Positions 6,186 to 36,882 of a DNA stretch of 41,567 nt are shown one piece after another. A model generated the notes under the pieces. It was not told the origin of the DNA, searched no databases, and saw only the letters and a list, made by a program, of their open reading frames with translations. The number at the start of each line of letters is the position of its first letter. Position 1 is the stretch's first letter. Where the stretch lies: contig JAEHKU010000002.1 of assembly GCA_016838825.1 (NCBI GenBank), positions 29,351 to 70,917 of the forward strand, read 5' to 3'. This DNA comes from Nitrosopumilales archaeon (GTDB lineage Archaea; Thermoproteota; Nitrososphaeria; Nitrososphaerales; Nitrosopumilaceae). The translations under genes were made by a program, and so were the position numbers.

Positions 6186-6836
6186 ATGCATAACCAATGC
6201 TTTATCGAAGTTGATGACTTTAAGAATTTAGCAAGATATGTTTGTGCGTTTAGAGAAAACTCACTAAGAGTTTATTTACATGACCTGAATGGTTGCATGG
6301 TTTTTTCAGCTGAACTTGCTCTTGCTAACACTCTGCTTTCATTTTATACACCCACAATGAAGAAGGGACGATATGTTTCATACGAATTAAAAGGCGGAAA
6401 AGAACATTGTGATGTTGTTAACTCAACTAAAACTATTTCCCATTATGCTCCTATAATACATCTTGAATCACTTCCCTCTAAGATCAAGATAAAAACAGAG
6501 AATCTTGAGGATCAATTCACTCCAATCAAGACAGGGAGTTTGGGAAGTCTAGTTAGGATTGCGTTCTCGTCGGACCCTGATGTACCAGACCTTACTCTTT
6601 TTCTATTTGAACATAAAAAAAAATGGATAATAGGACAGATTTCGTCAATCGATTTTGATGATCCTGTTTACTGTTTTAATTATGTAACGTTAGACACTGA
6701 ACCAACTAAACCTTTTTTGAGATATTCAAGTCAAGATGGAAAAGAACCAAAGTTTACTGACAAGTTTGAACACGGTTACTCATATCTTGCCGTGATTAAA
6801 CTAAAACAAAGTTATTCCATTTTTGGGTTAAATTGA
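6186..6836 (+). CDS. Conserved-looking protein of unknown function
   Basis: This 216-residue protein is not recognised. It lacks a signal peptide or transmembrane segment and is predicted soluble. The pattern of alternating hydrophobics suggests a mainly beta-sheet fold (for example SLRVYLHDLNGCMVFSAELA and LVRIAFSSDPDVPDLTLFLF). It is a single gene between the PhoU-like protein and endA, with a well-placed TATA box 28 bases before the ATG. The promoter and intact frame support a real gene. No function is proposed. Confidence 0.7.
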   Translation: MHNQCFIEVDDFKNLARYVCAFRENSLRVYLHDLNGCMVFSAELALANTLLSFYTPTMKKGRYVSYELKGGKEHCDVVNSTKTISHYAPIIHLESLPSKIKIKTENLEDQFTPIKTGSLGSLVRIAFSSDPDVPDLTLFLFEHKKKWIIGQISSIDFDDPVYCFNYVTLDTEPTKPFLRYSSQDGKEPKFTDKFEHGYSYLAVIKLKQSYSIFGLN

Positions 6837-22712: not shown

Positions 22713-24056
22713 TTAGTAGAGGAAACTAAGTAATTTTATTTGCTGTTCTGTGGATATGATATCCTTAGCTGTTAGTATATCAAGCAATTCTTTTAGTATT
22801 GCTTTCTCTTGTTCTGAGAATCCAGCAGCACCTGCAGTACCTGGTGGACCTGGTGGACCCTTTGATCCTTGTTCGCCTGGAGAACCCTGCGGACCTTTCG
22901 GACCAGGTTCACCTGCAGAACCTCTTGGACCTTGAGAACCTCTTTCACCTTGTAATCCTTGAATTCCTTGAGGCCCTTTTTCACCAGCTTGTCCTTGTGG
23001 TCCATTAGGACCTTTATCGCCTTGCGAACCAGGAACTCCTCTATTACCCTTATCACCTTGTGGACCAGGAATTCCAGTAAGACCTTTTTGACCTGTGGGG
23101 CCTTGTGGACCCTGTGTGCCTTTATCTCCTGGTGAACCTTGTTGTCCAGTAATTCCTTTTGATCCTGATAGACCCTGAACTCCTTTATCACCTGACTGAC
23201 CTTGCGGTCCAGTAGTACCTTTATCACCTGACGGTCCTCTAAGTCCGAGGCCGCCTTTATCGCCTTTATCTCCTGGTGAACCTGTTATTCCTTTTGCTCC
23301 TTTCTCACCAGGAGAACCTTGTGAACCTAGTATTCCCTTATCGCCTTGGACGCCTTTATCACCAGTGGATCCCTTTTCGCCACGCGGACCTTGTGTACCC
23401 TTATCACCTTTATCGCCCTTGTCTCCAGTAATTCCTTTTTCTCCTGGAGATCCTCTCTCACCAGCAGGACCTTTGTCTCCAAAAGTACCAAGTGGGCCTT
23501 TAGATCCATTATCTCCAGGAAGACCTTGTGGACCTGTAACTCCTCTTTCTCCGGTAGAACCTCGAGGACCTTTTTCTCCACGTGGACCTATTTGTCCTCT
23601 CAGACCACTTTGACCACCAAGTCCTTTTTTACTAGCTGTACGTCGGGTCTCAGTTATTTCACTAGGTTCTTCAAATGTTTCTGGTTCTTTTTGATACATA
23701 CTATCAAGGCTTTCTTGTGGAGTTTCTGGAACAGATTCGGCTTGACTTTCTGACATTAATTTTGCAACTTCAATCTTAATCGATGTATAAGTTGGCGAGA
23801 ACTCATCTACTACTACAATGTAAACTGAGTCTAGATCAAAAACAGATTCAGGAATTGGATTTTTATCACTTCCAAGAATCTCGGTAAATTTTCCGTTCTT
23901 TACTGTTAGATGAAATTTATCACTCCAAAGAGAAGTGAAACTTTTATCCTCTATTTTTTTAGTAATAGGCTTGGTTTCACAAATTGAGATTTGTACCTCA
24001 AAAGTTCCTTCAGATTGCCTAAAAGGTGAGGTTCCTTCTACCTCTATCCTTTGCAT
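22713..24056 (-). CDS. Collagen-like Gly-X-Y repeat protein
   Basis: This 447-residue protein (from ATG 24056) has three parts. Residues 1-144 hold a beta-rich N-terminal region with [23 protein letters not shown], a pattern I associate with N-terminal domains of some bacterial repeat or tail-fibre-like proteins. An acidic linker follows. Residues 145-414 are 90 uninterrupted Gly-X-Y triplets. The last 33 residues are a Leu-rich helix-like tail that could trimerise. GDK and GEK triplets abound, giving Lys-Gly-Asp/Glu pairs known to stabilise triple helices without hydroxyproline. No signal peptide or membrane anchor is visible. A GTG at 24071 would add five residues, but a TATA element sits 26 bases before ATG 24056. 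Confidence 0.9.
22815..23624 (-). repeat. 90-triplet collagen repeat tract
   Basis: Every third residue is Gly across 270 residues with no interruption. The underlying DNA is a degenerate 9-base periodic tract, recoded enough that it is not a simple satellite. Aspects such as frequent GDK triplets suggest past tandem duplication. Confidence 0.9.
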
Positions 24057-24078
24057 CCGATCACTTGACACATCAATG

Positions 24079-24086: not shown

Positions 24087-24157
24087 GCACGCTATTTTTG
24101 TATTTGCCAGACCTTATAGGAAGCATAATTAGTAACCCATGTAATTTTCTGAGAATA

Positions 24158-24190: not shown

Positions 24191-25291
24191 ATGAAAAAGC
24201 TCTTCAGTAAAAAATCACTCAAAAAAGATAAGGAAACAAGTATTGTAGATGCAGACTATGCTAGAAACAAGTATTTCAAAAAAGGCATTAATTTCATGGC
24301 AGACGAAAAAATGGAAGACGCTTGTGAAACGTTTGAAATGGCACTCAGAATAGATCCTAATCACGTTGATTCACTCCTAAAGTTGGGCTATGCTCACTTC
24401 CATCTTGATGATTACAACAGCGCCATGAAAGCATATGATAGAGTACTGCAGATTGACGTTACCAACGCAGATGCTTGGAACCTCGAAGGACTGGTCTATT
24501 ATGAACAAAAAAAATATGCAAAGGCTTTGGATTGTGTTGAAAAATCTATCGACTCAGAACCCACCTTCGGAATGGGTTGGTATAACAAGTCATGTTATCT
24601 TTCGTTATTGAATCAAGTGCCAGATGCAATAGATGCATTAAAACGTTCTATAGAAATAGATGTTAAAAATGCAAAAAGAGCAGTTAAAGATCCTGACTTT
24701 GTAAATGTCAGAGTAGAAGAAGGATTTAGAAGAATTGTGCAAGTCGTTGTTTTAGAATCTATACGACAAGGATACCATAACATGGGCCAAATTGTGTGGA
24801 CTACTTTTCTTAGTAAAAAAGAAGTTGAAGATGCTACAAGAAAGTTGATACTGAAAGGGTTGATCACCGTGCATGAGAAAAGACAGGGTCTTCAAAGAGT
24901 ACCAACGTGGGACTTGGTACCACAATTAGTCGATAAATTAAAGGCACAAAAGAGAGGGCTTCTTGGTCCTAAGAAAATAAGAGTTTCTTCCTCAATTAAG
25001 GAACTCAAAGAAGTGAGTGAAACAATTCAGTTGACAAAGATGGCAATAGAAAAAGGAGACGTTGAAGAAATTCTTACAAACTTCGAACAGTTTATTGATC
25101 CTGCAAAAAAAGGCTCACAAATGATCGACCACTTCTTTGAGGAACATCGTGACATAAGATTATACAAAATACGATTAAAGGAAAGAGGTTCTGACTATTT
25201 GAGCCTGAATAAGGACAAACTTTTAGAATTGCTTGACAAAATAGATTTAGGTATAACTAAAAAACTTCGTACTGAAATTACACAAAGCTAA
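24191..25291 (+). CDS. TPR-repeat protein with a winged-helix-like C-terminal region
   Basis: The 366-residue protein begins with a Lys-rich segment, then at least three to four tetratricopeptide repeats between about 25 and 165, for example ACETFEMALRIDPNHVDSLLKLGYAHFHLDDYNSAMKAYDRVLQID. After about residue 175 it becomes a mixed helical region. The segment GQIVWTTFLSKKEVEDATRKLILKGLITVHEKRQG resembles a winged helix. The TPRs imply a protein-binding scaffold, and the second part may bind nucleic acid; both are inference. It is monocistronic, divergent from the collagen-like gene. Confidence 0.85.
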   Translation: MKKLFSKKSLKKDKETSIVDADYARNKYFKKGINFMADEKMEDACETFEMALRIDPNHVDSLLKLGYAHFHLDDYNSAMKAYDRVLQIDVTNADAWNLEGLVYYEQKKYAKALDCVEKSIDSEPTFGMGWYNKSCYLSLLNQVPDAIDALKRSIEIDVKNAKRAVKDPDFVNVRVEEGFRRIVQVVVLESIRQGYHNMGQIVWTTFLSKKEVEDATRKLILKGLITVHEKRQGLQRVPTWDLVPQLVDKLKAQKRGLLGPKKIRVSSSIKELKEVSETIQLTKMAIEKGDVEEILTNFEQFIDPAKKGSQMIDHFFEEHRDIRLYKIRLKERGSDYLSLNKDKLLELLDKIDLGITKKLRTEITQS

Positions 25292-34553: not shown

Positions 34554-35864
34554 TTGGCTACCCTTTCCAAGGAAACTCTTTCTGGAAATCTTGTTAAGCA
34601 ATTCAAAAAAACCAGAGCCCAAACCTTAGAGCTAGTCAAAACATTAGAGAAGGATGACTATGTGGTGCAGACAGCGCCTTATATGAGCCCCCCAAAATGG
34701 CATATAGGTCATGTTAGTTGGCTTTTTGAAATTTTGCTAAGCAAAGCACTAAGCAATTATGAATTTTATTCAGAAGAATTTTCAAAATATCTAAACTCCT
34801 ACTATCATCAATTTGGAGAGCCTCATGAAAAAGCAAAAAGAGGTATTATTTCAAGACCGACAGTTGATGAGGCGTTAGAATATTTTAATACAATTAGTGA
34901 TCGTGTAATTAATTTTCTTGAAAACAATTCGCCTAACAAAGAAGTTTCAACACTATTCACAATGGGAATAAATCATGAATACCAACATCAAGAACTCTTA
35001 GTGTATGATTTACAGCATCTTCTTGCTGACGGATACAGGCCAGTACAAAAAAATCCACAACCCACAACAGGTTCCATGGAACAAAAATCAATCAAGATAG
35101 AAGGTGGATTATACAATTTGGGTTATTCAGGGAGTGACTTTTGTTACGATATAGAACTACCAGAACACAGAGTTTACTTGAATAACTACAAGATTGATGC
35201 CTTTCCAGTCACAAATCAGGAGTATGTTAAATTTATTGAAGATGGATGTTATCAAGACTACAAGTATTGGTTATCAGATGGTTGGGATGTTGTAAAAGCA
35301 AACAAGTGGGAGGCACCCATGTACTGGGAAAAAGAAAATGGTAAATGGATTATTCATGACTTTCTTGGAAAAAGAAATATCAATCCTAATGAACCTGTAT
35401 GTCATGTGAGTTTTTACGAAGCTGATGCTTATTCAAAATGGACTGGCAAGAGATTACCAACTGAAGCAGAATGGGAAAAGGCAGCATGTTGGAACAAAGA
35501 AAAACAAACAAAAACCATCTTTCCATGGGGAAATGAATTACCAATTGAAAACAAAGCGAACTTGCTAGAATCATACATCTGGGCTTGTTCTGAAATAGGC
35601 TCTTATCCTGAAGGTAAAAGTCACTATGGCTGCCATCAGATGATTGGTGATGTTTGGGAGTGGACTTGTTCTGAGTTTACGGGATATCCTGGATTCAAAA
35701 CTGGATTTTCGGAATATAATGACAAATGGTTTTCAAATCAGAAGGTATTGCGCGGAGGTTCATTTGGTACTCCTAAATTATCTATACGATCAAGTTATAG
35801 GAATTTCTTCAGATTAGATGAGAGATGGATGCTTTCCGGCATTAGATGTGCTGAGAGAGTTTAG
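34554..35864 (+). CDS. egtB: Hercynylcysteine-sulfoxide synthase EgtB-like (ergothioneine biosynthesis)
   Basis: The 436-residue protein joins an N-terminal DinB-like iron domain to a C-terminal formylglycine-generating-enzyme fold, the EgtB architecture. Iron ligands are visible: His50/His53 in PPKWHIGHVSWLFE, then His141, His145 and Glu147 in HEYQHQE. The FGE part has RLPTEAEWEKAA, GDVWEWTCSEF and LRGGSF. EgtB links hercynine to a thiol donor with oxygen; gamma-glutamylcysteine versus cysteine cannot be told here. The methyltransferase domain of OvoA/Egt1 fusions is absent, but a separate EgtD-like gene is convergent with it, overlapping by 23 bases. Confidence 0.93.
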   Translation: MATLSKETLSGNLVKQFKKTRAQTLELVKTLEKDDYVVQTAPYMSPPKWHIGHVSWLFEILLSKALSNYEFYSEEFSKYLNSYYHQFGEPHEKAKRGIISRPTVDEALEYFNTISDRVINFLENNSPNKEVSTLFTMGINHEYQHQELLVYDLQHLLADGYRPVQKNPQPTTGSMEQKSIKIEGGLYNLGYSGSDFCYDIELPEHRVYLNNYKIDAFPVTNQEYVKFIEDGCYQDYKYWLSDGWDVVKANKWEAPMYWEKENGKWIIHDFLGKRNINPNEPVCHVSFYEADAYSKWTGKRLPTEAEWEKAACWNKEKQTKTIFPWGNELPIENKANLLESYIWACSEIGSYPEGKSHYGCHQMIGDVWEWTCSEFTGYPGFKTGFSEYNDKWFSNQKVLRGGSFGTPKLSIRSSYRNFFRLDERWMLSGIRCAERV

Positions 35865-36882
35865 CTTTAGATAGCAATACAACAGCAAAATGATGGTTTT
35901 CGTCCTGCCATAATTTCGTAATTTTAAAACCAACTTCATCAGCCAACTGCTCAATCTGGGATATAGAATATTTGTATGAATTTTCAGTATGAATAAGCTC
36001 GCCTTTTTTGAAATCTAGAGATAGATCCAAGTCAGAGATGTGAACCTTTTGTTCGGTTTTAGAACGTAGGTACATCTCCATTCTACTTTTCTTTTCATTA
36101 AAAACTGCATAATGTTCAAAATTTTGAAGAATGAAGTTAGCTCCAAGCTCTTCGTTGATTCTTGATAGGAGGTTTAAGTTAAAATCTGCAGTAATATGTT
36201 GGGAATCATCATATGCAGATTCAAGTATTTTTTTATCTTTAACTAAATCAAGACCGATTAAAAAAAAGTCATTGTCATTCATTGTTGAATGAATTTTTTC
36301 GAGAAAATCTCTTCCAGAATCAGCATCAAAGTTTCCAAAACTAGAGCCTAAGAAAATAATCAACTTTTTTTGTTCATCAAAAGTTTGAATGAATTCAAGC
36401 CCTTTTTCATATCTGTCAATTATGCCCGTAATGTACAGGTTATCATATTGTTGGAGAAGTGAACGAGAACTTTCTTTGATGATATTTGATATATCAATTG
36501 AAAAATATTCAACTTCCTCTTGACTTTGACACAGGATATCTAGAATTTTTCTTGTTTTAGTAGAACTGCCACTGCCAAATTCAACTAGTCTATAGTGTTC
36601 TTTAAGATACTTTGATAGCTCACTAGTTAGTCTACTTAAAATTGAAATTTCAGTCCTAGTCAAGTAATATTCTGGTAACTCACATATTTTTTCAAAAAGT
36701 TTGGAGCCTCTGTCATTATAGAGAAATTTTGGATGAATGTGTTTTTGTTTTTGAGTGATGCTATGAGCAATTTCACTTGCAAAATTTTGTAATTTTATAC
36801 TATAGTCTGGAATTAAACATCTAAATTTAGGATTAACTAGAATCTGCTTGTAACCTGAAATACGTGTTGTTTTGTGAGTCAA
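35842..36882 (-). CDS. egtD: L-histidine N-alpha-methyltransferase EgtD-like
   Basis: This 346-residue SAM-dependent enzyme trimethylates histidine to hercynine, the first step to ergothioneine. SAM-binding VEFGSGSS is at 100-107. PKFLYNDRGSKLFEKICELPEYYLTRTE near 51-78 is the diagnostic EgtD block, followed by IFLGSSFGNF and the MEMYLRSK segment. The start is TTG at 36882, with a TATA element centred 27 bases upstream. Together with EgtB it covers the two core steps. The final C-S lyase is not in the window. Confidence 0.94.
   Translation of the reverse strand: MTHKTTRISGYKQILVNPKFRCLIPDYSIKLQNFASEIAHSITQKQKHIHPKFLYNDRGSKLFEKICELPEYYLTRTEISILSRLTSELSKYLKEHYRLVEFGSGSSTKTRKILDILCQSQEEVEYFSIDISNIIKESSRSLLQQYDNLYITGIIDRYEKGLEFIQTFDEQKKLIIFLGSSFGNFDADSGRDFLEKIHSTMNDNDFFLIGLDLVKDKKILESAYDDSQHITADFNLNLLSRINEELGANFILQNFEHYAVFNEKKSRMEMYLRSKTEQKVHISDLDLSLDFKKGELIHTENSYKYSISQIEQLADEVGFKITKLWQDENHHFAVVLLSKAKLSQHI

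Follow-up and report, generated by a model that had tools for sequence, protein, structure and literature searches.

The window analysed here, a stretch of 41,567 nucleotides from a Nitrosopumilales archaeon, carries on its minus strand a gene for a collagen-like protein of 452 amino acids (22713..24071), which opens with a GTG codon at 24071 and ends with a stop at 22713. A sequence-only reading of the same DNA had placed this gene at 22713-24056; its stop and its open reading frame are real, but the start is better placed at the GTG than at the alternative in-frame ATG at 24056, which lies 15 bases downstream. We prefer the GTG because the proteins of relatives begin at the same place, with (M/V)SS, and because a conserved promoter-like box stands upstream of it. 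In the window this box reads AAATACAAAAATAG (24092..24105, minus strand) and lies 21-34 nt upstream of the GTG; its general form, AAATACA(G/A)AAATA, is kept at an equal distance from the start in about 60 relatives, and such a placement would be expected of the archaeal TATA/BRE element of a nearly leaderless message. The encoded protein is built of 149 residues ahead of a collagen-like tract, 90 Gly-X-Y triplets and a tail of 33 residues. All six matches to the Pfam collagen family PF01391 in the host genome fall within this gene, and a second collagen locus is absent from that genome.

The Gly-X-Y tract occupies residues 150-419 (22815..23624, minus strand), and an exact count from 23624 down to 22815 agrees with the 90 perfect triplets, or 270 uninterrupted residues, that had been described before. 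PF01391, the sole Pfam family matched by the protein, recognises it at 149.8 bits (E 1.8e-44) against a gathering cut-off of 27.2. The sequence-only reading had also described an enrichment of Lys-Gly-Asp/Glu and had built on it an argument for the stability of the helix. In our hands, the motif KG[DE], that is, Lys in Y followed by an acidic residue in X of the next triplet, occurred 3 times, whereas shuffling of the X and Y residues gave an expectation of 6.3 (probability of as many or more, 0.99), and as it is not in excess the stability argument that depends on it finds no support here. What is enriched are acid-lysine pairs within one triplet (GDK and GEK), at 18 against 6.4 expected. Eleven other members were tested, and while none had a significant excess of KG[DE], all had the excess of acid-lysine pairs within the triplet. 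With regard to the prolyl hydroxylation of animal collagens, a search of the organism's own genome (93% complete) with one Pfam family, the 2OG-Fe(II) oxygenases of PF13640, gave no match. A single unbroken tract is found in 58 of 60 complete genes of the family, with lengths of 68-163 triplets (median 121, commonest 124). Close to the C-terminal end of the tract lies a GPP-GPP clamp (22842..22859, minus strand) formed by triplets 4 and 5 from that end; 97% of members have GPP at each of these two positions, a share that drops to about 7% from position 15 onward.

The tract is flanked by two further domains. About residues 9-101 make up an N-terminal beta-domain, hereafter the head (23769..24047, minus strand), which is conserved across the family. 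AlphaFold2, given a 35-row alignment, predicts that it is all-beta, with a mean pLDDT of 88 and a core of about 95, which bears out an earlier description of this region as structured. The head has no Pfam family match, and a fold search returned no significant match, the nearest solved structure being the region of the Enterococcus faecium adhesin SgrA that binds its ligand (TM 0.49, E 0.15). A suggested resemblance of the head to a domain associated with bacterial tail fibres was rejected: Pfam found no domain, a PDB profile search gave no credible match and the fold searches were non-significant, and a plasmid search with a consensus sequence gave no match either. Between head and tract lies a variable linker (about residues 102-149; 23625..23768, minus strand), which has low pLDDT at its start and is weakly constrained. 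The 33 residues of the tail (22716..22814, minus strand) are predicted by AlphaFold2, with a pLDDT of 90, to form a helical hairpin, in agreement with the helix-like tail noted before, and we infer that this hairpin is a trimerization domain. The C-terminal 40 residues were found in Nitrosopumilaceae alone, and there solely as the end of this protein; a suggested resemblance between the C-terminus and the SHOCT domain received no support from Pfam and no match in the fold search, and was dropped. Taken together, 14 close pairs gave dN/dS values of 0.039 in the tail, 0.096 in the tract and 0.099 in the head, as against 0.62 in the linker, and in 1569 aligned triplets of relatives there were 3 changes of Gly, 206 of X and 236 of Y. 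We consider head, tract and tail to be under purifying selection.

Compared with known systems, the window protein shares with PF01391 a perfect Gly-X-Y tract that scores far above the cut-off, but it differs in having a head and a tail outside Pfam and in the absence of an export signal. Its best NCBIfam matches are the streptococcal LPXTG-anchored collagen-like adhesins Scl1/Scl2 (NF038330, NF038329), in which a non-collagen head likewise accompanies a long Gly-X-Y tract. However, it falls well short of both models (152.6 bits against a cut-off of 325 for NF038329, and 145.9 against 400 for the other), it has neither a signal peptide nor LPXTG, and its head and tail are different ones. We regard the family, whose head and tail lie outside Pfam, as a variant of the collagen-like class.

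When the N-terminal region was used as the query, the gene appeared once per genome in 36 of the 37 genomes searched from the same family, and in none of the 24 from the order's other families. A profile search of 398 genomes of the phylum was positive for 60 of the 63 family genomes, and the other 335 gave nothing apart from one match at chance level. This match, in G259 (E 5e-4), was the only match to the head outside the family; it lies in a 292-aa ORF that has no Gly-X-Y tract, and we set it aside as chance. Carriers met in contig collections, which were searched with a sub-alignment of the family, include Nitrosopumilus, Nitrosarchaeum, Nitrosotalea and Marine Group I, and these names identify the family as Nitrosopumilaceae. 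We take the gene to be a single-copy core gene of these ammonia-oxidizing archaea, common to nearly every member, rather than the oddity of one genome. The window protein has all the features by which we define the family, namely the head, the unbroken tract, the GPP-GPP clamp, the hairpin, the promoter box and the locus. Both the collagen gene and the TPR-repeat gene that neighbours it are absent from G340 and G410, and since the TPR gene is missing too, the locus is probably missing from these assemblies; in G028, which has no collagen match, the TPR gene sits at the edge of a contig. In the fairly complete genome G430, a protein-isoaspartate-methyltransferase-like gene adjoins the TPR gene where the collagen gene would be expected (L197), and here the collagen gene has apparently been lost or the locus rearranged, a case that speaks against the reading preferred below. 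In one single-contig genome (G006, L042), the collagen gene is broken into several ORFs, through either a sequencing frameshift or decay of the gene.

The TPR-repeat gene (24191..25291, plus strand) stands head-to-head with the collagen gene and is a conserved landmark of the locus. At nearly all loci, genes for a DRG-type GTPase, HAD and ArgRS lie on the other side of the collagen gene, and genes for rhodanese, sulfite reductase and Thi4 follow on the far side of the TPR gene; the window has a DEAD-box helicase gene between the GTPase and collagen genes. The TPR gene is also present in sister families without the collagen gene, and at one locus (L187) the order is ArgRS-HAD-TPR-...-Thi4, with the collagen gene absent. 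We judge the TPR gene to be the older of the two, and the simplest history would be a single gain of the collagen gene in the Nitrosopumilaceae stem with vertical inheritance since. Elsewhere in the window, genes for an FGE-sulfatase/DinB_2 protein (34554-35864, plus strand) and a histidine-specific methyltransferase (35842-36882, minus strand) lie tail-to-tail, as in ergothioneine synthesis (EgtB/EgtD), and a 216-aa ORF at 6186-6836 (plus strand) has no Pfam match.

Two accounts would give the gene a foreign origin. One is contamination or misassembly, in which a collagen gene from a bacterium, an animal or a virus was placed in the contig, and a break in composition had been proposed as its sign. 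The G+C content does rise over the gene, to 0.43-0.45, but we attribute this to Gly and Pro codons; GC3 within the tract is 0.15, more A+T-rich than in the surrounding coding parts and host-like. Moreover, dozens of independent genomes, single-contig chromosomes and cultured strains among them, carry the same gene at this locus. Because synteny around the gene holds throughout the family, we exclude contamination, which is scarcely credible for this gene. The other account, a tail-fibre gene domesticated from a virus or a contractile injection device, is very improbable. Tail fibres of bacterial viruses with Gly-X-Y resemble the window protein in being long and fibrous, in having a collagen-like tract and in needing no signal peptide, and tail-fibre families of PHROGs do match it, though through the tract. 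Taken by itself, the head matches no PHROG significantly, and neither a set of 50,697 phage records nor IMG/VR yielded a relative of it; no viral fold match was significant, and the gene is a host gene held in fixed synteny among housekeeping genes. In PHROG, phage records, IMG/VR, the fold search and the locus, neither a non-collagen domain shared with viral fibres nor a neighbouring virion gene was found.

Where the protein resides is a separate question. The absence of a visible signal peptide, pointed out in the sequence-only reading, is confirmed by a mean hydropathy that peaks at 0.29 within the first 40 residues (averaged over 15 residues), and a peak of 0.92 over the whole protein (averaged over 19) indicates no membrane helix. 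The family maximum over 19 residues, 1.65, equals the usual membrane-helix threshold, and the window protein lies far below it; none of the relatives whose frame was recovered has a signal-like stretch, a membrane helix or LPXTG. Further collagen-like proteins with Gly-X-Y tracts occur in the same class, Nitrososphaeria (L188, L189, L190, L192, L193 and L194), but they carry signal peptides or N-terminal membrane helices, their other domains are different and most have only 14-40 triplets. Those encoded in the same family, L193, L194 and the very large L192, have signal peptides, and those of other families, L188-L190, are signal- or membrane-anchored. In L192 (G329, minus strand), the signal peptide goes with a run of 559 Gly-X-Y triplets without a break, which exceeds the longest tract of the family studied here severalfold. 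L189 and L190, from the order's other families, each combine an N-terminal membrane helix with 19-21 Gly-X-Y triplets and numerous CxxCH haem motifs, and they look like multihaem cytochromes in which the collagen-like stretch is a spacer. Because the other collagen-like proteins of the same family carry signal peptides, the missing signal in the present protein is likely to be meaningful and leans towards the inside of the cell. The question raised before, of an intracellular protein or an unusual route of exit, was an apt one, and the absence of a signal throughout the family tilts the answer to the former; we believe that the protein probably resides in the cytoplasm.

The main rival to a cytoplasmic location is that the protein leaves the cell without a classical signal and acts as a surface adhesin or as a fibre associated with the S-layer, which we see as possible but considerably less likely. 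Known bacterial collagen-like proteins are mostly surface proteins, archaea are able to export some proteins without a classical signal, and the nearest fold match of the head, though non-significant, is the adhesin domain of SgrA. Among openly available papers we found none describing the family and one likely mention of it, under a misleading automatic name; other papers that name both collagen and ammonia-oxidizing archaea had no bearing on it. In a 2026 study of 'Ca. Nitrosotenuis chungbukensis' MY2, a member of Nitrosopumilaceae, 'LPXTG-anchored collagen-like adhesins' were strongly expressed at low salinity, one was detected in the proteome and a role in the S-layer was proposed (PMC13037477). 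The MY2 adhesin may be the present protein, because its name is the title of NF038329, our protein's best, sub-threshold NCBIfam match; the identity is not certain, as Nitrosopumilaceae can have further collagens. However, its placement at the surface derives from the automatic name, and the proteome was that of whole cells on filters (PMC13037477). Against the surface also stands the lack of any export or anchoring feature throughout a family whose genomes encode signal-peptide collagens elsewhere. A different objection concerns the tract itself, which might be disordered and join head and tail as a flexible spacer rather than as a triple helix. In the window protein only a third of X and Y positions hold imino acids, which would suit such a spacer, but disorder would require neither Gly at every third residue, as seen in the near absence of Gly changes among relatives, nor an unbroken register over 68-163 triplets, nor a fixed GPP-GPP clamp beside a helical domain. 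We consider a disordered spacer improbable and, from the near-invariant Gly, the clamp and the C-terminal hairpin as signs in the sequence, a trimer with a triple helix highly probable.

Our preferred reading is of a triple-helical rod inside the cell, to which we assign a probability of roughly 55%. An imino-rich clamp next to a small oligomerization domain sets the register and starts the folding of many collagens, and on this precedent we would place nucleation at the C-terminus and the heads at the N-terminal end. In the model that we propose, three C-terminal helical hairpins would associate and set the register of the chains, and the GPP-GPP clamp beside them would nucleate the triple helix. 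The tract would then zip toward the N-terminus to form a rigid homotrimeric rod, at whose N-terminal end three beta-domain heads on flexible linkers would bind a partner. Computed at 0.286 nm per residue, the length of this rod would be about 77 nm here and about 104 nm for the median relative, and in the cytoplasm it would serve as a spacer or scaffold of fixed length.

What such a rod might do is suggested by the shape of the cells. Rods are typical of Nitrosopumilales and irregular cocci of Nitrososphaerales (PMC4129164), N. maritimus has a width of 0.17-0.22 µm (PMC12097351) and genes for crenactin or MreB tend to be present in the rod-shaped archaea of other groups (PMC7613921). An actin/MreB-family match was found in none of 37 Nitrosopumilaceae genomes, with bacterial controls positive. 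In cells about 200 nm wide, a rigid spacer of 80-100 nm is plausible as an internal support. A role in shape or as a scaffold, by which the protein would support from within the thin, rod-shaped, actin-less cell of Nitrosopumilaceae, is nevertheless a guess, and a tentative one. More doubtful still is the full proposal, that an intracellular collagen is a cytoskeletal rod or fixed-length scaffold that helps to give these cells their thin rod shape. Because the gene was, by the simplest history, gained once, the argument from cell shape amounts to one independent observation.

The structural part of our reading is strong and the location likely. Nearly all Nitrosopumilaceae keep a signal-less collagen-like rod under purifying selection, which makes it a concrete and testable candidate. 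If it is cytoplasmic, it would stand as a rare case of a cellular collagen that does not pass through the secretory route. The family would also offer a hydroxyproline-independent collagen with a built-in registration domain of 33 residues and, if our reading is true, it would represent a structural use of collagen within a cell.
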